DNA of 41,121 nucleotides from a virus, in IMG/VR virus record IMGVR_UViG_3300033273_000224, positions 1-41,121 of that record; one strand, 5' to 3'. The position numbers and the translations under genes are program-made. Below the pieces are notes generated by a model. It made no database searches, was not told the origin of the DNA, and saw nothing but the letters and a program-made list of their open reading frames with translations. This document shows positions 14,725 through 23,442 of the stretch, piece after piece. Every line of letters starts with the position of its first letter. The first letter of the stretch is position 1.

Positions 14725-15695
14725 CTTAGCATTTCGCGTGTAAGGAAGGCAGTTTCGTTGAACTGAAGGGACAGTTCGTATGCGGTCGGACCATAATCAT
14801 AGGTGTCGTTCTTAGAATCACCATTTTTCAAGGTATTCAGGTGACCGTCAGGGGTCATGTTCACTGACATGTTGGTTAGAACGCATTTTGTCGGGAACTG
14901 CATCAGGAACGACAATGTTTCAGGAGGTGCCATGTCATCGTCCAGAGTTTCATTCGCACCTTTGTATCTGACAATGCTCAACTGGAAGAAGTCGGGGATG
15001 GTCAACCAACGATCGCCTCTACCGCGACCACTATCAATCTGTGAGAATATATCGTTACCACCAGCATCACCACCACCTGAGGTACCAGGGAGCATAGACA
15101 CACGCAGGGACTGGATGATCTTGGTGATTGATACTACATCTTGAGGACTTCTGGGGACCAGTTTGAAGTTGAAGGTGTGAGTTCTATAGTCAACACCCTG
15201 GAATGTGGTCTCTTCATAAGGGTTCATGATTGCTCTCTTAGCAAGAGCAGCAAGGTCATTAGCAGTAATGTTGCTGTTTCCCATATTTGCAATGTTCATG
15301 GCACTCGCTGCCACGTTACCTGCTATTTGGGTTTTGCCTTGTTCTGCTGCTTGGGAGATCATAGTGCCAGCATCTTGAGTATTCCCCTGCTGGAACATTT
15401 GTGTACCAGCAATACCAGCAGCACCAAGACCCACTTGGTTGTATTTTGTGGTATACTGTTCACTTAAGTTCGCAGGAAGATATAGAAAGATAGATTCTTT
15501 CGATTTACCTTTCGATCTTCCTGTTCCCGCTCCACTACCTACATAGTTATACGGACTTGTCTTCCTGGAATCGAAGATATCGATTTTCAGGTAGTCCATC
15601 GCTTCAGTTGGAAACGATGCTGTGTTTCCAATCGCTTTTCTGCTACTTACCGAACTGGTGCCGAGCGGTTTTACTCTCGGGAATACTAATGCCAT
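14721..15695 (-). CDS. 48: Tail tube cap protein gp48
   Basis: A 324-residue homologue of T4 gp48, which sits on the baseplate hub and starts the tail tube. Family-type segments: MALVFPRVKPL, ESIFLYLPANLSEQYTTKYNQV, NPYEETTFQGVDYRTHTFNFKLVPRSPQDVVSITKII, DFFQLSIVRY and TKCVLTNMSVNMTPDGHL. The centre is an Ala/Gln-rich helical stretch. Its start codon shares the CATG at 15693-15696 with the divergent gp4 gene. A GATAAATA on the minus strand 64 nt upstream, inside gp4, is its likely promoter. Confidence 0.87.
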   Translation of the reverse strand: MALVFPRVKPLGTSSVSSRKAIGNTASFPTEAMDYLKIDIFDSRKTSPYNYVGSGAGTGRSKGKSKESIFLYLPANLSEQYTTKYNQVGLGAAGIAGTQMFQQGNTQDAGTMISQAAEQGKTQIAGNVAASAMNIANMGNSNITANDLAALAKRAIMNPYEETTFQGVDYRTHTFNFKLVPRSPQDVVSITKIIQSLRVSMLPGTSGGGDAGGNDIFSQIDSGRGRGDRWLTIPDFFQLSIVRYKGANETLDDDMAPPETLSFLMQFPTKCVLTNMSVNMTPDGHLNTLKNGDSKNDTYDYGPTAYELSLQFNETAFLTREMLR

Positions 15696-16128
15696 GAGTT
15701 ACTCTGGAAGGTTTAGACCATCACATACTCAAAAATATAAGGGGGATCCTACAAACATTATTTATCGTAGTTTGTGGGAAAGAAAGTTCATGGTTTGGTG
15801 CGACAAAAATGACAATGTTCTTGAATGGGGTTCGGAAGAAATCGTTATCCCCTATGTTAGTCCTGTTGACAATCGGATTCATCGCTATTATCCAGACTTC
15901 TACGTCAGAGCACGGACCAGGAGTGGAAGGATTGAGAAGTTCATTATTGAAGTTAAACCAAAGTCGCAGATACATCCCCCCAAAAAACAAAAAAGGGTAA
16001 CGAAGAAATACCTGACTGAGGTCAAAACCTATGCTGTCAACGAAGCGAAGTGGAAGGCAGCAGAAGAGTATTGTGCTGATCGCAGAATGAGTTTTATGAT
16101 ACTCACCGAAAAGGAACTCAAGGTATGA
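15694..16128 (+). CDS. 4: Head completion protein gp4
   Basis: A 144-residue protein close in length to T4 gp4 (150 aa), needed to complete the head after DNA packaging. The sequence SGRFRP.HTQKYKGDPTNIIYRSLWERKFMVWCDKNDNVLEWGSEEIVIPYVSPVDNRIHRYYPDFYV has the TnsA/Vsr-like nuclease layout: a Glu in SLWERKFM, Asp in YYPDFYV, and IIEVKPK (Glu-x-Lys) after it. An in-frame ATG at 15622 lies inside the opposite gp48 gene and is rejected. It ends in an ATGA overlap with the next gene. Confidence 0.88.
   Translation: MSYSGRFRPSHTQKYKGDPTNIIYRSLWERKFMVWCDKNDNVLEWGSEEIVIPYVSPVDNRIHRYYPDFYVRARTRSGRIEKFIIEVKPKSQIHPPKKQKRVTKKYLTEVKTYAVNEAKWKAAEEYCADRRMSFMILTEKELKV
15759..15766 (-). promoter_or_regulatory. 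Late promoter for gp48-gp53 (GATAAATA, minus strand)
   Basis: The plus strand reads TATTTATC, so the minus strand has the late octamer GATAAATA. It sits 64 nt upstream of the gp48 start codon and within the gp4 coding sequence, as it must because the two genes have no intergenic space. Confidence 0.6.
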
Positions 16129-16598
16129 GCATTTACACAGATGTATTGGATGCCACAGGAAGCAAAAGAAGATCACGTCCTTGGTACCGTGATCAAGTCC
16201 GCTCTCTACTTGAACCTTTGGATCGTTTGCCTGCTGTTGGCGATGTGGTTTTCTACAACTACAGTGCCCAAACAGCAGAAAAACTAAAGTTTTGGGATAA
16301 GTTCCCCATGACACTAATCACAGACATTAGTCTTGCTGACAACAGGTTTGAGGGAGGCAATCTACACTACTTAAGACCTACAACAAGGATCACCGTAGGA
16401 GCATCAATCAAGGCGGGAGGAATGTCATATCCTCGTCGCTGCCATCATAAATACTTCTTAAGTGCGGCGGGATCTATGTATTTGGTCCCCAAAGAGGAAC
16501 TGGACAGTATTGGCAAACTGCCACTAGAACAGTTCACAACTACTGTTATGGGTCGGCAAATCGACATACCTAGTTCTCACGTTTGGAGTAGATTATAG
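16125..16598 (+). CDS. Hypothetical virion-associated protein, 157 aa
   Basis: Coupled to gp4 by an ATGA overlap and to the next gene by TAGTG. Conspicuous features are DRLPAVGDVVFYNYSAQTAEKLKFWDKFPMTLITDI followed by GGNLHYLRP. A beta-rich domain of the form (Y/F)xYxA...WDxFP...GxNLHYL is, as far as I recall, seen in uncharacterised proteins of many T4-like phages. Given its neighbours (gp4, tail tube-like), a role in the head-tail joining or baseplate region is plausible. Confidence 0.65.
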   Translation: MSIYTDVLDATGSKRRSRPWYRDQVRSLLEPLDRLPAVGDVVFYNYSAQTAEKLKFWDKFPMTLITDISLADNRFEGGNLHYLRPTTRITVGASIKAGGMSYPRRCHHKYFLSAAGSMYLVPKEELDSIGKLPLEQFTTTVMGRQIDIPSSHVWSRL

Positions 16599-17347
16599 TG
16601 CCATATTCAGCACCAAACTCATTTACAGAGTTTAGAGATTGGATCCGTAGCGGTGGAGCAGAACCCGCACGTTCCAACCTATATTCTGTGTTTGTGGGTC
16701 TGCCCCGTTGTGTTCGTGCCGCTGGGTTCAGTGAGTTTCGTACCTGGACCGAGTATGTGAACTTTGCTGCTGATGATGTAACCGTACCTAGCAGACAGAT
16801 CACTACTGCACAGGTCAAAGACTTTGGTATGCAGCGCAACTATGCCACAGGTCAGGTTAACAGTCCTATCACCGTTTCCTTCCTGGTGACTAAGGATCTG
16901 ATGATGCGACATGTATTTGAACTGTGGATGAATAGTGCTGCAGGTGACCAAGAGAACCGCACATCATTTTACGATCAATACACTACCAACATCATCATCC
17001 AGAAGTGGGAGTTGGGGAGTAACGTTGTATATAAAGATCACAGGGATCCTAGGATTCAGCAGAGATTGAATCGTTGTACTGGTGCTTGGCAACTGATTGG
17101 TGCATTCCCAACCAACATCAGTGTGATGCAACTCAACAACGAGGCAACAAGTCTCATGAAGATGGACATTGAGTTCAGTTATGAAAGATACAGATTTGAT
17201 CAGGTTCTTGAGAACCTTGGTTGGGCAAATATGCCTGATAAGTATATTGATCTTTTCACTCAGGCAGGTGTCAGTCTTGGTGTTCTCAACGATATTGGAA
17301 TCGGCGGAGATTACGGTCAAAACGAAGTAAATGACTACGGGATTTAA
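16598..17347 (+). CDS. Tail tube-fold protein (gp54/gp19-like)
   Basis: A 249-residue protein with a GTG start in a TAGTG overlap. The order of elements is that of T4-type tail tube proteins: SNLYSVFVGLP, a FAADDVTVPSRQITTAQV strand, RNYATGQVNSPITVSFLVTKDLMMRHVFELWM, then GAFPTNISVMQLNNEATSLMKMDIEFSYERYRFD. The gp19, gp48 and gp54 proteins share this fold. Position among baseplate genes and beside gp48 favours gp54, the tube initiator, over the main tube protein. Assignment to gp54 itself is inference. Confidence 0.6.
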   Translation: MPYSAPNSFTEFRDWIRSGGAEPARSNLYSVFVGLPRCVRAAGFSEFRTWTEYVNFAADDVTVPSRQITTAQVKDFGMQRNYATGQVNSPITVSFLVTKDLMMRHVFELWMNSAAGDQENRTSFYDQYTTNIIIQKWELGSNVVYKDHRDPRIQQRLNRCTGAWQLIGAFPTNISVMQLNNEATSLMKMDIEFSYERYRFDQVLENLGWANMPDKYIDLFTQAGVSLGVLNDIGIGGDYGQNEVNDYGI

Positions 17348-17350
17348 CCG

Positions 17351-17357
17351 CTAAATA
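17351..17357 (+). promoter_or_regulatory. Late-type promoter CTAAATA
   Basis: Lies in the 37-nt intergenic gap, 27 nt before the gp26-like start. The extended sequence CCGCTAAATAC (17348-17358) is repeated exactly at 23372-23382, 60 nt before the gp27-like gene, which supports a functional element. Confidence 0.6.
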
Positions 17358-17384
17358 CCTATACTGAAGTCGTAATGCCACATT

Positions 17385-18089
17385 ATGCCCTTACCTAAAC
17401 TTGTTGTACCTGAATATACATGTACACTTCCTATATCGGGTAGAAAGGTCAAATACAGACCTTTTCTAGTCAAAGAAGAAAAACTCTTGTATCTCGCCAT
17501 GGAGTCCCAAAAGGAATCCGAGATGGTGAGTGCAGTAAAGACCATTATCAAAAACTGCACTGATATCAAAAAAGATATCGACAAACTCCCCACCTTTGAG
17601 ATTGAATATATCTTCCTTCGCATTCGCGCAAAGGCAGTTGGTGAGGTGAGTGAGTTTGTTGTCACATGTCCAGATGATAATGAGACAACCGTGGAAGTTC
17701 GTCTTCCTCTGGAACAGATTGATGTTGTTGTTGATCCAGATCATACCAATATGATTGACCTGGGTGGTGACATCAAAATGGAAATGAAGTATCCGTCCGT
17801 GGATGTGTTCATCGACCAGAACATGAAGGATAATCCTAACATCGAGGATATGTTCAAACTCGCAGCATCATGTATCGATAAGGTATATGACGCTGAAGAG
17901 ATCTACGAGTCTTTCACACAGAAAGAAGCACTGGATTTCTTGGGTGAGTTGAACTCTGAGCAGTTCCAACAGGTTCAGAAGTTCTTCGACACGATTCCCA
18001 AACTGAAGCATGATCTTGTGGTTACTAACCCCAAGACTAAGGTCGAAAGCACTATTCCTCTTGAGGGTCTTGCTGCTTTTTTCGGATAG
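17385..18089 (+). CDS. 26: gp26-like baseplate hub / tail-assembly chaperone protein
   Basis: A 234-residue protein of the T4 baseplate hub assembly type (gp26/gp51 family, T4_baseplate in Pfam by memory): MPLPKLVVPEYTCTLPISGRKVKYRPFLVKEEKLLYLAMES, then a helical body with PTFEIEYIFLRIRAKAVGEVSEF. It is encoded directly before two giant tape-measure-like genes, as tail-assembly chaperones are in other tailed phages. Its last codons GCT TTT TTC GGA TAG contain a -1 slippery heptamer, so a minority of ribosomes could extend it by the short downstream frame (see the frameshift entry). Confidence 0.75.
   Translation: MPLPKLVVPEYTCTLPISGRKVKYRPFLVKEEKLLYLAMESQKESEMVSAVKTIIKNCTDIKKDIDKLPTFEIEYIFLRIRAKAVGEVSEFVVTCPDDNETTVEVRLPLEQIDVVVDPDHTNMIDLGGDIKMEMKYPSVDVFIDQNMKDNPNIEDMFKLAASCIDKVYDAEEIYESFTQKEALDFLGELNSEQFQQVQKFFDTIPKLKHDLVVTNPKTKVESTIPLEGLAAFFG
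18077..18083 (+). other. Probable programmed -1 ribosomal frameshift site (T_TTT_TTC)
   Basis: The heptamer TTTTTTC at 18077-18083 is in the correct phase (T TTT TTC) of the gp26-like frame, two codons before its stop. The -1 frame is closed by TGA at 18062-18064 and then open from 18065 straight into the short frame ending at 18277. The two frames thus share only 25 nt, and that stretch contains the slippery site. Slippage would yield a 297-residue fusion crossing as AAFF-RIALMHDN. An 8-bp stem AACCTTAT/ATAAGGTT (18104-18111 and 18120-18127) follows 20 nt later, farther than a usual stimulator. Confidence 0.75.
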
Positions 18090-18094
18090 CACTC

Positions 18095-18277
18095 ATGCAT
18101 GACAACCTTATGAACATGTATAAGGTTAACTTTGCTTTGATGCAGCATCACAAGTACAGTCTAACTGAACTTGAAGATATGATCCCCTGGGAACGTGATG
18201 TATATGTGAACTTACTTATCGCTCACCTTCAAGAAGAGGAGCGTAGGCAAAAGGCACAAAATAGACAATCACTCTAA
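18095..18277 (+). CDS. Short -1 frame ORF, C-terminal part of frameshift product
   Basis: 60 codons counted from the ATG at 18095, but that ATG lacks any Shine-Dalgarno sequence (TTTTTCGGATAGCACTC precedes it). The frame continues upstream to the slippery heptamer of the gp26-like gene, so expression as a fusion is more likely. The sequence YKVNFALMQHHKYSLTELEDMIPWERDVYVNLLIAHLQEEERRQK has the look of the T part of lambda-type G-T chaperones: a helix, then an MIPWER motif, then a charged helical tail. It ends in a TAATG overlap with the first giant protein. Confidence 0.7.
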   Translation: MHDNLMNMYKVNFALMQHHKYSLTELEDMIPWERDVYVNLLIAHLQEEERRQKAQNRQSL

Positions 18278-20877
18278 TGGCAAAAATAAAAGTCAGAGAA
18301 TATGTTGCGGTGCGTCCTCCTAAGGATAGCACAGGACTTTCTGTGGGTTTTACTAGCACTATTAGACAGGTTAACCGTCTAGGCACCACTCTTACGGGGA
18401 TTGGCAGAAGCATTGGTCAAATCCACACATTGCATGAGTTCTCGGAAGAGTGGTTGGACAGTTCGGGTGACCGACGTTCAAGAAAGATTCGTCGTGACGA
18501 TAATCAAGCACACAAACGCTGGTTAGAAAAAGGACGAGTCGAGGAGAAGTTAAAGAATAAGAAGCAAGACCAAGATGCAGAGGATGCACAGGAATCCGAT
18601 GCTGATGGTGAAGAAGTTATTGATGAGAGTAAACTCAAAGATAACGTAAGAAAGGAGAAGGGGGGTCGTCTTAAGGGATTCCTCGGTCTCTTTAAGGCGA
18701 TCGGCGGTCTACTTGCACCGTTTATTGCTCAACTAGGACTATTTGCTGGACTTGACTGGGTATCTAAGAACCCTGAGAAAGTTCAGAAAGTTATCGACTT
18801 CCTCGTTGGATGGGGTAAGTTCGGATATAAGATATTGTCGTTTGGTATCGACAAGTTCCTGACTGGGGTCACTGACCTCATGGGAGCAGGCGATCCAAAT
18901 AAGACAGTGGGTGAGCGAATCTGGGCTGGTGTCAAGGGCATCGGCGGACTCATCGTGGGTCTGGGTGGTCTATGGGCTGCTTCTAGGGTGTTCATGCCTT
19001 GGAAGTTGATCAATGACACCAGACGTTTCATGCAACTCTGGGATATTTTCAATGCTCAGGGTGAGGATCGGGATCAACAACGTGATCGCCCCAACCGCCG
19101 CCAACGCCCCACAAGACGCCAAAGAACAGCAAGAGCATCCAAGGCAGCGAGACAGAGATATGCTCGCCGCTATGGTGGTGACGCTGCCCGTAGAAGATTC
19201 CAAGGGAATGTAAAAGGCAGAGGTCCGCTCAATAAGATGCGTGCCACTGCGAGTAAAATAAACCAGGGTGCGAAAAAGTTATCTGGCGGTCTTAAGAAAC
19301 TGACTGGAAAACTTGGTAGGATGAAAGGTCTTACCAAGGGTTTGACCAGGATTGCTGGACCCGCCATGGCAGTCCTGAGTGGTGTGAATGCCTATCAGGA
19401 TGCACTTGCAGCAGGTAAAACAAACAGTGAAGCGGTTGGTATTGGTGTAGGTAAGGCAGCAGGAGGCACGCTTGGTGCCGTTGTCGGTACTGCACTGCTT
19501 GGTCCATTCCTCGGTCCCTTTGCTCCCATCATCGGTGGTATTATCGGTGACTGGTTAGGTGGTTGGGCAGGCGAAAAACTTGGACCTATTGTAGAGAAGG
19601 CGTTTAAGAAAGTCTTCGAGTTCTTGAAGAAGGCAAAGACCTTTATCAAGGACACCATCAAGAAGGTGTTGAATATCCAACTGAAGTTTATCAAACCCTT
19701 CCTTGACTTCACCTTCTATTGGGTTGATCTCCTCGCTGATGCGGTAGATCAACTTAACAAGTTTAATGACTTTATTATGAACGCTGTTCTTGACAGCGTT
19801 ATTGAAACCATTACTAATATCATTGGTGGTGCTCAGTTCCTGGCAAATAAAGCAGGACAAGCATGGAATGCCATCACAGGATTCTTTGGATTCTCTCAGG
19901 GTGGTCCAGTTACCAATAAGAACCAAGTATACAGAGAGGTTCACCAAAGAAAGAGAACAGAACAGAATAAGTTACCCAAGAAGGCATCGGGTGGTAAGAT
20001 CCGTGCTTGGTACACCACTGGTACTGGTGGTAAATCTAAGAAGTTGCCCATGGGTAAGGAGATTAGCTATGGAATGCTCTACCCGCACCATAGTCAACCT
20101 ACGACATTCAGATCGTATGGTTCTCACAAGATTGGTTATCCCAAGGACTACAACTTCAGTAACACCACAAGTGGTGATCCTTGGCCCTCTTCTGGTAGAG
20201 ATGTAGGCATCCCAACTCCACTGGATGCTGAGGTTATCTATAAAGATCCCACATCTCGTTCTGGTGGTTACGGTAACACCGTGGTCGTCAAGACGAAGCA
20301 GGGGTTCATGCAGTATTCTCACCTGCATTCGTTTGGTAACTTCAGACCTGGGGATAAGATCAAAGCAGGTACGATTGTTGGTGGTCAGGGTGACACAGGC
20401 ACACCTGGATCTTGGCACCTGCATATGAACGCACCCAAGAGATTGCATGAGGTATTCTCAAACTATATCTCTATGGGTAAACCTGTCAGTGGTAGCACTG
20501 GCAAAACTCCTTCTCAGGAAGAAGACGGAACCGAATCTCAAACTGATAGTGGAGCGGCATCGGCAGGACCGTCGATGGACTTGTCCTTCTTGAAAGGTGG
20601 AATCATTGGCAATGATCCAATGGCAGCAGGTCAAGAGTCTGAATACTTCGGATCTCTGGAATCTGCAGTTGGCGCTATCAGTCCGACCGCCTCTAGTGGA
20701 GCACTAAATAAGGTTGGGTCCTTGTCTGTATTTAGCAGTCAACAATCTATGAATAGGGCACTTGCCCCTGGTGGAAGCACCATTATGATTCAGCAGATTC
20801 GCAACGCTGCTAATGGTTCAACACAGTCGGTGATTGTGTCTCAACCAAACCCATCACCGTTAATCAATAAGTGTTAA
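18277..20877 (+). CDS. Tape-measure-like tail protein 1 with M23 peptidase-like domain
   Basis: 866 residues. Residues about 1-130 are basic and helical. At 159-186 lies LDWVSKNPEKVQKVIDFLVGWGKF, shared with the next gene. A very Arg-rich stretch follows at about 265-310, then Gly/Ala-rich hydrophobic helices (GKAAGGTLGAVVGTALLGPFLG) typical of tape measures. Residues about 600-735 form a LytM/M23 domain: GRDVGIP with Asp642, GYGNTVVV, YSHLH with His682, and WHLHM with His714 and His716. The usual first zinc ligand His is Ser638. It probably spans the tail or hub and acts on peptidoglycan at entry. Coupled by TAATG to the frame before it. Confidence 0.75.
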   Translation: MAKIKVREYVAVRPPKDSTGLSVGFTSTIRQVNRLGTTLTGIGRSIGQIHTLHEFSEEWLDSSGDRRSRKIRRDDNQAHKRWLEKGRVEEKLKNKKQDQDAEDAQESDADGEEVIDESKLKDNVRKEKGGRLKGFLGLFKAIGGLLAPFIAQLGLFAGLDWVSKNPEKVQKVIDFLVGWGKFGYKILSFGIDKFLTGVTDLMGAGDPNKTVGERIWAGVKGIGGLIVGLGGLWAASRVFMPWKLINDTRRFMQLWDIFNAQGEDRDQQRDRPNRRQRPTRRQRTARASKAARQRYARRYGGDAARRRFQGNVKGRGPLNKMRATASKINQGAKKLSGGLKKLTGKLGRMKGLTKGLTRIAGPAMAVLSGVNAYQDALAAGKTNSEAVGIGVGKAAGGTLGAVVGTALLGPFLGPFAPIIGGIIGDWLGGWAGEKLGPIVEKAFKKVFEFLKKAKTFIKDTIKKVLNIQLKFIKPFLDFTFYWVDLLADAVDQLNKFNDFIMNAVLDSVIETITNIIGGAQFLANKAGQAWNAITGFFGFSQGGPVTNKNQVYREVHQRKRTEQNKLPKKASGGKIRAWYTTGTGGKSKKLPMGKEISYGMLYPHHSQPTTFRSYGSHKIGYPKDYNFSNTTSGDPWPSSGRDVGIPTPLDAEVIYKDPTSRSGGYGNTVVVKTKQGFMQYSHLHSFGNFRPGDKIKAGTIVGGQGDTGTPGSWHLHMNAPKRLHEVFSNYISMGKPVSGSTGKTPSQEEDGTESQTDSGAASAGPSMDLSFLKGGIIGNDPMAAGQESEYFGSLESAVGAISPTASSGALNKVGSLSVFSSQQSMNRALAPGGSTIMIQQIRNAANGSTQSVIVSQPNPSPLINKC

Positions 20878-20880
20878 TAG

Positions 20881-23442
20881 ATGGCAAACGCACCAACAGG
20901 AGTACCAAGAGCTAAACTCTTTAAGATGATCTCCACTAAGGGGATCTCTAAGAGATCAGTGACCAACAGCGATTTCGGCACACTTATCGACGTGCAGAAC
21001 TCTGGTTTCATGCAGATGGGCAAGGCACTGAATAGCATTGGTGCGTCTGTTAATAGTATTGCTATCATGCTGGAAGGCATGAATGCATCCTTCCGAGATT
21101 CTGTTCAGGCACAGATCAAATCTCAAGAGAAGATTGCGGATGCTCAGGATGATGCTGAGAAAGCAGCACGAGTAAGAGAAGAGAAAGATATTAGGGCAAA
21201 GAGAAAGGAAGCAGGTAGACAAGCAGACGATCTTGCGGAAGCGAAACAAGAGAATAGATTTGCCAAGGCGGCAGGCAAGGTTGGTTTTGCTGCTGGTCTA
21301 GTTGTAGGTAAGGTGGCGAACGGGTTAATGAACCTGTTGGCAAACCTAGGTTCGTTGTTTATGAACCTAGTTGGATTTGCTGCACTAGACTGGATATCAA
21401 AGAATCCAGAAAAAGTACAGAAGATAACTGACTTCATAGTCACCGCAGGTAAGTTTATATACAACATTGCCTCATGGTTGGCTGGTGTTGCCTTGGATGG
21501 CATCACTGAGTTTATGGAGAACCCATGGTCCTTGAAGGGATTGTTGGGTATTGGTAAGTTCTTCTTGGTTCTTGGAGCAGTATTTGCGGGACCAACACTT
21601 GCCAAACTTGGTCTGAAACTACTCCTTAAGGGTGGTTTCAAACTTATCATTAAACCAGTCTTCCAACTCTTAAAGGGGGTTGGAAAACTACTCTTCAATA
21701 TGGGGAAGGTTGCCGCTAAAGGCATCTTCAAAGCAGGTAAGTTTTTAGTCAAGAATCCTAAAGTTGCTCTAGGTCTTGGGGTTGCTGCGGGTATTGGATT
21801 CCTCGCTAAGCAGGCGTATGACGCCAACCAACCCGACACTGGAGTAGAGAAAGGCAAGTCTCAAGCAGAAGAGACGAATGCCTTTGGTGGTATGATTGGT
21901 GACCCGATGTCTATGCTGGCAATGCCAGACATAAACTTCGAGGACATTGAAATGCCCGAAATGCCTGACCTCACGGCAGGCATGGATCCAAAGGTACTGG
22001 AAGAACTTGCACAGAAGCAAGTAGCAGAGAAACTGATGTACTCTGCTGATGAGATTAAGCAGCAGACTGAGGACGATTCCCAGAAAGCAGCAGAATCTCA
22101 GAAGAAGAAAGGTGGCGACTTCTGGAATGCTCTGAAACCCATTTTCCAACCCATCATTGACTTGTTCAATGGTGTGAAGGATATGTTCATGAAGGTCGTT
22201 GGATTCTTCAAGAGCGAACTTGACGACACTATTGGTTTCTTTGGTGAACTGTTCGGAACCGTCAAGGAGTTCATCTCTCCTTACGTCGATAAACTAAAGC
22301 GATTGGGTGGTGGTCTTCTCAAGACTATCTTCCGCCCGTATATCACGATGTTTACGGCGGTCCAGAAAGTTCTGGAGATGTTCAAGAAGAAAGATGATGA
22401 GAAGAAAAACAATGAGATGGCAAGGGGTGGTCCTCTGCCACAGAAAGCGAAAGGTGGATGGATCAGCGGTCCCCAGTCGGGATATCCTGTCTCACTCTCA
22501 GGTAACGGCGTAGATTTTATCGGTCACGGTACCGAATGGGTTGGCATGAAGGGATATGCCAGCGGTGGATCTGCATTCGTTATTCCATTTGACACCCCTG
22601 CAACTAGAGCAAACCCAGGTCTCACCAACCAACGTTGGGGTGAGGCAATGCGTGGTGGTTACCAGTTGCCTGGTTTTGCCGATGGTGGTGTGTTTGACTT
22701 CGCCAAGAAAATGATCAAGATCCACGAGGGATCTAACATCGTTGGTGGTAGACACAAAGCATATAAGGATAGCGAGGGATACCCGACGATTGGTTATGGT
22801 CACATGATCAAACCAGGCGACGGATACAGCATGGGATCTGTCATCTCCCAGGCAGAGGCAAATAAACTGTTTGATAAAGACTTCAAACACCACCTTGCAC
22901 AGGCACAAAGAATCCCTGGATACAAGAAAGCACACCCACAGGCAAAGGCAGCACTGATTGACCTTGCCTTCAACATGGGTGGTGGATTCTATAAGGACTT
23001 CCCTAAGTTCACTGCAGCACTCAAAGCAGGAAACTACGAGAGAGCAGGTGAGGAACTCAGGGATAGTGCATGGTACTCTCAGGTAGGACGTAGAGCAGCG
23101 CCGATCATCAATCTGATCAAGGGTAAGGGCACTGGTGGTGCATCTCATCTTAGAAGTCTTAAGGCACCTGCTAACACTGGTACAGGTGGTGATCAACTGT
23201 CATCCCTGCAGCAGGGGCAGGAAGCACGCATTGAGTCTGCTTCTGCATCCCGTAGTCAAACAACTGTCGCACAGGCACCTACAGTCACCCAGAAGGCGCA
23301 AGGAAGCAATGGTGGGCAATCTGATGGTGGTAAACCTGCATTTGTGGGTCTGCCTCAGCGTGAACAGGCTGCCGCTAAATACATGATACCTAGGTTTGGT
23401 CTGATGAACGAGATCAACACACCACCCACGATGTTAACGTAA
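20881..23442 (+). CDS. Tape-measure-like tail protein 2 with C-terminal GH24 lysozyme domain
   Basis: 853 residues, beginning three bases after the previous stop. A coiled, charged N-terminal region (about 55-125) is followed by LDWISKNPEKVQKITDFIVTAGKF at about 169-194, paralogous to the previous protein. Long hydrophobic and amphipathic helices rich in Gly and Lys come next. Residues about 605-760 are a T4-lysozyme-type muramidase: Glu616 in IKIHEGS, Asp630 in YKDSEGYPTIGYGH, Thr636, and the AALIDLAFNMGGG segment. It would cut peptidoglycan glycan strands during DNA entry. The tail after it is Gln/Ser/Gly-rich. Such a lysozyme in T4 is part of gp5 instead. Confidence 0.8.
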   Translation: MANAPTGVPRAKLFKMISTKGISKRSVTNSDFGTLIDVQNSGFMQMGKALNSIGASVNSIAIMLEGMNASFRDSVQAQIKSQEKIADAQDDAEKAARVREEKDIRAKRKEAGRQADDLAEAKQENRFAKAAGKVGFAAGLVVGKVANGLMNLLANLGSLFMNLVGFAALDWISKNPEKVQKITDFIVTAGKFIYNIASWLAGVALDGITEFMENPWSLKGLLGIGKFFLVLGAVFAGPTLAKLGLKLLLKGGFKLIIKPVFQLLKGVGKLLFNMGKVAAKGIFKAGKFLVKNPKVALGLGVAAGIGFLAKQAYDANQPDTGVEKGKSQAEETNAFGGMIGDPMSMLAMPDINFEDIEMPEMPDLTAGMDPKVLEELAQKQVAEKLMYSADEIKQQTEDDSQKAAESQKKKGGDFWNALKPIFQPIIDLFNGVKDMFMKVVGFFKSELDDTIGFFGELFGTVKEFISPYVDKLKRLGGGLLKTIFRPYITMFTAVQKVLEMFKKKDDEKKNNEMARGGPLPQKAKGGWISGPQSGYPVSLSGNGVDFIGHGTEWVGMKGYASGGSAFVIPFDTPATRANPGLTNQRWGEAMRGGYQLPGFADGGVFDFAKKMIKIHEGSNIVGGRHKAYKDSEGYPTIGYGHMIKPGDGYSMGSVISQAEANKLFDKDFKHHLAQAQRIPGYKKAHPQAKAALIDLAFNMGGGFYKDFPKFTAALKAGNYERAGEELRDSAWYSQVGRRAAPIINLIKGKGTGGASHLRSLKAPANTGTGGDQLSSLQQGQEARIESASASRSQTTVAQAPTVTQKAQGSNGGQSDGGKPAFVGLPQREQAAAKYMIPRFGLMNEINTPPTMLT
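23375..23381 (+). promoter_or_regulatory. Late-type promoter CTAAATA inside end of upstream gene
   Basis: Part of CCGCTAAATAC (23372-23382), identical to the site before the gp26-like gene. It lies 63 nt before the gp27-like start, a suitable distance, although within coding sequence. Confidence 0.45.

Follow-up and report, generated by a model that had tools for sequence, protein, structure and literature searches.

A candidate frameshifted tail assembly chaperone gene with flanking signals in marine T4-like viruses

Does the short open reading frame (ORF) that follows a gp26-like gene in an IMG/VR virus record encode a protein of its own, or is it the end of a longer protein reached by a ribosomal frameshift? 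The record is 41,121 bases long and was analyzed over its full length, referred to here as the window. A 2016 review describes a short form and a -1 frameshift form in lambda, encoded ahead of the tape measure gene, and calls such G-T frameshifting widely conserved in long-tailed phages "except T4" (PMC5009743). Two later papers cite the work of Vladimirov, Gautam and Davidson (2022), one for slippery poly-T stretches within the TAC-N genes of T4-like phages (PMC12846349) and the other for the occurrence, in some T4-like phages, of a short gene together with a longer fused one (PMC10885494). At least as these accounts present it, a frameshifted tail assembly chaperone (TAC) pair is already known in kind for T4-like phages. 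A reading of the locus made from sequence alone had proposed a system of the lambda G/GT type and knew of no report for T4-like cyanophages; the second point has to be qualified, T4-like TACs with poly-T sites being credited to the 2022 work. The comparisons given below indicate that the gp26-like gene very probably encodes a TAC-N/TAC-NC pair via programmed -1 frameshifting.

Overlapping reading frames at the end of the gp26-like gene

The features of the locus are as follows.

16598-17347, + strand: tail-tube-like gene directly upstream, 249 aa (phrog_45 tail tube, 5.3e-39)
17385-18089, + strand: gp26-like gene, proposed TAC-N ("G" part), 234 aa (PF12322, phrog_150, predicted fold)
18077-18083, + strand: slippery heptamer T TTT TTC, in phase (T TTT TTN in 166/166 genes)
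18087-18089, + strand: TAG stop of the 0 frame (read from the sequence)
18083-18277, + strand: proposed TAC-C ("T" part), the -1 frame downstream of the slip up to and including its TAA (phrog_634, C-terminal part of phrog_150, hhalign to T4 gp51)
18277-20877, + strand: next gene, 866 aa, proposed tape measure with an M23 peptidase domain (phrog_167, PF01551)

The 3' end of the gp26-like gene reads GCT TTT TTC GGA TAG, and the first T of the heptamer is the third base of its codon. The -1 frame has a TGA at 18062-18064, is open from 18065, and ends in a TAA stop at 18275-18277. A -1 slip would give a predicted product of 297 aa with the junction AAFF-RIAL. The sequence-only reading had placed T TTT TTC at 18077-18083 in the correct phase ahead of the TAG, the open -1 frame at 18065-18277 after the TGA, and a 297-aa fusion with this junction, and direct checks returned the same coordinates and product. 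At the sequence level, a -1 slippery site near the 3' end joins a short and an extended product that share their N-terminus. TTTTTTC occurs once on the + strand of the window, and the count for both strands is at chance level (5 vs 6.7 expected), so the motif by itself is no proof. The heptamer is more than chance because of its phase, its position and, above all, its conservation.

The gp26-like gene is flanked by the tail-tube-like gene upstream and, downstream, by a gene that matches the phrog_167 tape measure family (9.5e-13), with four unknown-function or endolysin families scoring better, and also PF01551 (5.3e-9). The genes at 18277-20877 (866 aa) and 20881-23442 (853 aa) carry wall-degrading domains (M23 peptidase and phage lysozyme); the tail lysozyme of T4 is gp5, according to a 2010 review (PMC3004832). 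Further upstream, a TnsA-like endonuclease N-terminal domain (PF08722, 6.7e-23) is encoded at 15622-16128, where relatives including S-WAM1 and P-SSM7 carry a gene for head completion.

Conservation of the slip site and of the -1 frame

Relatives were gathered in two scans. The best 80 of 597 relatives were taken from a first scan of viral contigs, and a second scan with a Sinorhizobium phage phiM7 query yielded 78 more loci. Together with eleven further loci and the window these make 170 genes, of which 166 are complete; the other four (L133, L154, L155 and L170) had no stop within the fetched stretch and were left out. Kept outside the set of 166 were gene 26 of T4 and of CC31, FKP14, 18 Ackermannviridae loci, nine loci of the T4 gp51 type, the phiM7 GenBank record (L083; its site is identical to that of L093), and the later-fetched S-SZBM1, P-RSM6 and P-TIM40, all three with TTTTTTC. 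A relatives scan with the Vibrio K567 protein as query found nothing. Each of the two large scans returned near relatives of its own query, and since the relatives are also of common ancestry, naive p-values overstate their independence.

The heptamer occupies a single alignment column in 166/166 complete genes, window included, as T TTT TT followed by C (150), T (15) or G (1), and it is present in 115/115 clusters at 90% identity. The column is written TTT in all 115 clusters, making it the sole single-codon column among those at least 85% conserved. The codon preceding this TTT ends in T in 115/115 clusters vs a mean expectation of 0.53. In 340 other ORFs from the same loci, the spelling T TTT TTC or T TTT TTT accounts for only 23 of 302 Phe-Phe pairs. 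TTTTTTC lies 10 nt ahead of the 0-frame stop in all of the best 80 of 597 relatives (46-67% identity). In some more distant relatives the stop is nearer or further, but the heptamer keeps its place relative to the beginning of the -1 domain. The alignment of relatives was the check proposed from sequence alone, and both the heptamer and the -1 domain are kept; the accompanying judgment that a chance heptamer was unlikely is borne out by the conservation in 166/166 genes, not by the motif count in the window.

An in-phase heptamer was identified in 12 of 15 named phages. These are the cyanophages S-B68, S-WAM1, P-SSM7, S-SZBM1, P-RSM6 and P-TIM40, together with Pelagibacter phage HTVC008M, Sinorhizobium phages phiM7 and phiM9, Stenotrophomonas phage Ps15, Vibrio phage K567 and Aeromonas phage phiAS5. 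No in-phase heptamer was found within 60 nt in T4 gene 26, CC31 gene 26 or Klebsiella phage FKP14. In T4 and CC31, genes 26 and 51 are separate.

A first alternative is that the short ORF is a separate gene 51, translated from the ATG at 18095 or by reinitiation after the TAG. Public records of relatives do annotate the short ORF as a separate gene, and the window's ATG lies 5 nt past the TAG and six codons past the first slip codon. It had been described from sequence alone as having no ribosome site. That description is weakened by an SD pairing of -3.3 kcal/mol, no worse than the median for the starts of the upstream gp26-like gene; because the two values are equal, the window alone is compatible with separate initiation, against which the relatives argue. 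The first ATG is likewise found at codon offset 4-8 from the first slip codon in 71/114 clusters, and at offset 11 in one. In 39/114, in contrast, it comes at offset 17 or later, within the conserved domain, and 26/114 lack any ATG, GTG or TTG through codon offset 12. The first ATG is upstream of the slip in 3/114 clusters, and in 4/114 the open -1 frame contains a start codon of any kind at the slip or before it. Anti-SD pairing at the first start codon reaches -6 kcal/mol or better in a single cluster of 114. Pairing is only moderate even at the starts of the gp26-like gene itself (median -3.3 kcal/mol, 25% at -6 or better), so the SD test by itself is no bar to separate initiation.

The -1 protein itself speaks against a separate start, being conserved in the relatives' alignment from the slip site onward and so also ahead of the ATG. 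At +10 and +16, both of them second codon positions of the -1 frame, T is present in 114/115 clusters each, and the conserved +10 position precedes the first ATG in 111 of 114. The heptamer, moreover, is invariant at the codon level, and the annotated starts of gene 51 vary by record, with none in S-WAM1. We consider a separate gene 51 very improbable.

In public records the -1 tail is without annotation in S-WAM1, and its annotated length is 31 aa in P-SSM7, 48 aa in P-TIM40 and 63 aa in both S-SZBM1 and P-RSM6. A frameshift would explain such inconsistent annotation.

Signals flanking the slip site

Candidate stimulatory elements were identified on either side of the slip site.

18063-18067, + strand: proposed upstream stimulator, an SD-like GAGGG separated from the heptamer by 9 nt (conservation among clusters, anti-SD pairing, codon choice)
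18084-18088, + strand: 5-nt spacer before the stem (pairing profile, 114 clusters)
18089-18143, + strand: nested hairpin, proposed downstream stimulator (MFE, clade pair counts, synonymous null)
18089-18099 and 18133-18143, + strand: outer arms of the hairpin, imperfect in the window
18104-18112 and 18119-18127, + strand: inner stem of the hairpin, 9 bp, AACCUUAUG/UAUAAGGUU (direct check and folding)

The GAGGG element was absent from the sequence-only reading. G is present at -11 in 115/115 clusters and at -10 in 112/115. Anti-SD pairing has a mean of -7.19 kcal/mol vs -5.58 kcal/mol in synonymous shuffles (115 clusters), and is stronger than the shuffle mean in 88 clusters and not stronger in the other 27. 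Codon choice points the same way, GAG making up 71 of 96 Glu codons at the site vs a background of 33.5% before GG (naive p 6e-16).

Downstream, 60-nt folds starting at +12 have a mean z of -2.0 relative to synonymous recoding (114 clusters), and control folds at +72 and +120 have z values of -0.34 and -0.07 in the same clusters. When counted by lineage (35 groups at 60%), the mean z at +12 is -1.43, with 29/35 negative (p 7e-7) and six of the 35 showing no pairing excess; the lineage-level controls are -0.33 (p 0.054, borderline) and -0.27 (p 0.32). Pairing falls under the synonymous null at +6 to +11 and rises over it at +12 to +23 (114 clusters), a profile that suggests a spacer of 5 nt between heptamer and stem.

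An 8-bp stem at 18104-18127 had been noted from the sequence as a possible weak stimulator. The stem is present and has 9 bp, and in the window's clade it is part of a larger, statistically supported element; for the window alone the hairpin has an MFE of -16.4 kcal/mol and a modest z of -1.80. The window's best fold additionally pairs spacer bases 18085-18087 with 18147-18149. Within the clade, the inner stem has compensating changes, the window's AACC/GGTT among them, and the outer helix pairs in 78% of cells. RNAalifold on the 17 sequences of the clade recovers mainly the inner helix. The hairpin as named was drawn from one of these 17 (L010), a choice that favors it. In a shuffle control, the observed value was reached by 1 of 500 shuffles for cells paired, 8 of 500 for pairs changed on both sides, 0 of 500 for cells changed on both sides, and 32 of 500 for the covariation score. 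Further pair types showed no excess, all 500 shuffles being as high. Because these four measures exceed the shuffles and further pair types do not, the covariation is only partial. A search of Rfam with 17300-18500 gave no match up to E 1. Between lineages, the downstream stem differs.

On this statistical support, the SD-like and stem signals look selected to promote the slip. We found no report of SD-like and stem elements at a gp26-like slip site in a literature search with most subscription papers outside its coverage. The E. coli dnaX cassette consists of an SD-like element, an A AAA AAG heptamer and a stem. The arrangement in the window is similar, with an SD-like element about 10 nt upstream, a heptamer, and a stem a few nt downstream, here on statistical support. 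It differs in gene and purpose, in a heptamer that is T TTT TTC and not A AAA AAG, and in a downstream stem that varies between lineages.

These flanking elements also bear on a second alternative, that RNA polymerase slips on the T run and produces mixed mRNAs. Each of the 166 genes has a run of at least six T, and some have seven or eight, a point in favor of this alternative; six T is short for such slippage. Ribosomal slippage agrees with the presence of both an SD-like element and a stem set off by a short spacer, neither of which, to our knowledge, plays a part in transcriptional slippage. We judge this alternative very improbable, and slightly more so than a separate gene 51. A chance heptamer ahead of an unrelated or vestigial ORF, with which a TTTTTTC frequency neither above nor below chance in the whole window would agree, is ruled out to a negligible residue by the 166/166 conservation, the conserved -1 protein domain and the 23/302 Phe-Phe background.

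Protein family, chaperone reading and distribution

The gp26-like protein matches Pfam PF12322 (T4_baseplate, 6.8e-66) and phrog_150 (1e-73). For the -1 ORF the matching families are phrog_634, annotated "baseplate hub assembly catalyst" (4.7e-31), and phrog_150, in the C-terminal end of that family (2.9e-7). The profile built from relatives of the -1 ORF aligns with the final ~51 residues of proteins of the T4 gp51 type (hhalign probability 95.9, E 5.7e-9). The locus has both the PF12322 domain and the gp51-type C-terminus of the gp26/gp51 family. Residues 1-201 of T4 gp51 cover PF12322, and residues 147-246 cover phrog_634. Judged by sequence homology, T4 gp51 corresponds to the whole "fusion" in one frame, and T4 gp26 to its first part only. 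T4 gp26 and gp51 resemble the window's proteins in that both have PF12322 and that gp51 ends in a homolog of the -1 ORF. They differ in being encoded by two one-frame genes on opposite strands, with no in-phase heptamer near the end of gene 26.

A structural model of the gp26-like protein was built from 79 sequences (pLDDT 87.4); an alignment-free prediction was poor (pLDDT 41.6) and was set aside. The top PDB match to the model is 2OB9, the HK97 tail assembly chaperone (Foldseek prob 0.84, E 0.86). It covers residues 1-85, and the solved matches reach residue 87 at most. The Z scores are 7.6 over 83 residues for 2OB9, 7.0 for 3KLU (protein yqbn, which we take to be a related chaperone) and 2.3 for the next unrelated row, with the proviso that Z below 8 can reflect a common arrangement. 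The model gives moderate support to a TAC-N fold as in HK97 gp13. Among predicted viral structures, the 50 of 300 matches listed mostly carry baseplate hub names or no name and add nothing on chaperone function. A sequence search of solved chains with the profile and with T4 gp51 gave no chaperone match up to E 1.

The locus is like lambda G/GT in having a short and a predicted -1 frameshift form before the proposed tape measure gene, and like HK97 in that 2OB9 is the nearest solved fold to the predicted model. Unlike both, the window's gp26-like protein has a longer N-terminal part, and it has no sequence-level match to solved chaperones up to E 1. The lambda slippery site is G GGA AAG vs T TTT TTC in the window, and the size of the lambda protein is the basis of the length comparison. 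The work of Vladimirov, Gautam and Davidson (2022; Virology 566:9-15) reportedly deals with T4-like tail assembly chaperones and names genes 26 and 51 for T4. The G/GT-like interpretation first put forward from the sequence is supported, at the level of sequence and model, by the heptamer conservation, the -1 domain, the T4 gp51 homology, the TAC-like fold and the gene neighbors. A chaperone role for the gp26-like products, which we infer from this evidence, is well supported.

The T4 literature bears on this role in both directions. The 2010 review describes T4 gp51 as an essential protein whose function is unknown, names both gp26 and gp51 among the chaperones of hub assembly, with gp51 not in the final particle, and reports that genetic studies support gp26 in the hub (PMC3004832). 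As reported there, a place for gp26 in the hub is unlike a chaperone absent from the virion and counts against the TAC reading.

Under programmed frameshifting, the gp26-like gene would yield a short TAC-N of 234 aa. A minority of ribosomes would slip back one base on T TTT TTC, bypass the TAG and read 64 more codons in the -1 frame, for a predicted TAC-NC of 297 aa. The GAGGG 9 nt upstream and the stem ~5 nt downstream probably increase or adjust slippage. On the model of lambda G/GT, TAC-N would coat the tape measure protein and TAC-NC would recruit the tail tube subunit via its gp51-like end. T4 would make the same two products from two genes, gp26 being the short form and gp51 the one-frame equivalent of the long form.

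The gp51-like tail also lies in the -1 frame after the gp26-like gene in Ackermannviridae (L180-L197, e.g. L180:2289-2462; L086), and one of these -1 peptides matches the tail profile (hhalign E 7.9e-6). No in-phase X XXY YYZ heptamer was found within 90 nt in 18/18 of these loci, and 15/18 have no start codon before +32.

From its wider spread, the frameshift appears to be an older state than the two genes of T4. We tentatively suggest, as a model that may well prove wrong in part, that marine T4-like viruses set the ratio of TAC-N to TAC-NC by a three-part cassette (SD-like GAGGG, T TTT TTY, and a stem after a short spacer) in which the stem has been re-invented in each lineage, that gene duplication made this cassette dispensable in T4, and that Ackermannviridae use another slip signal. 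The flanking signals would then provide a concrete account of how the short-to-long ratio is set in a widespread group of marine viruses, and the "gp51" scraps annotated separately in cyanophages would become the end of one frameshifted protein.
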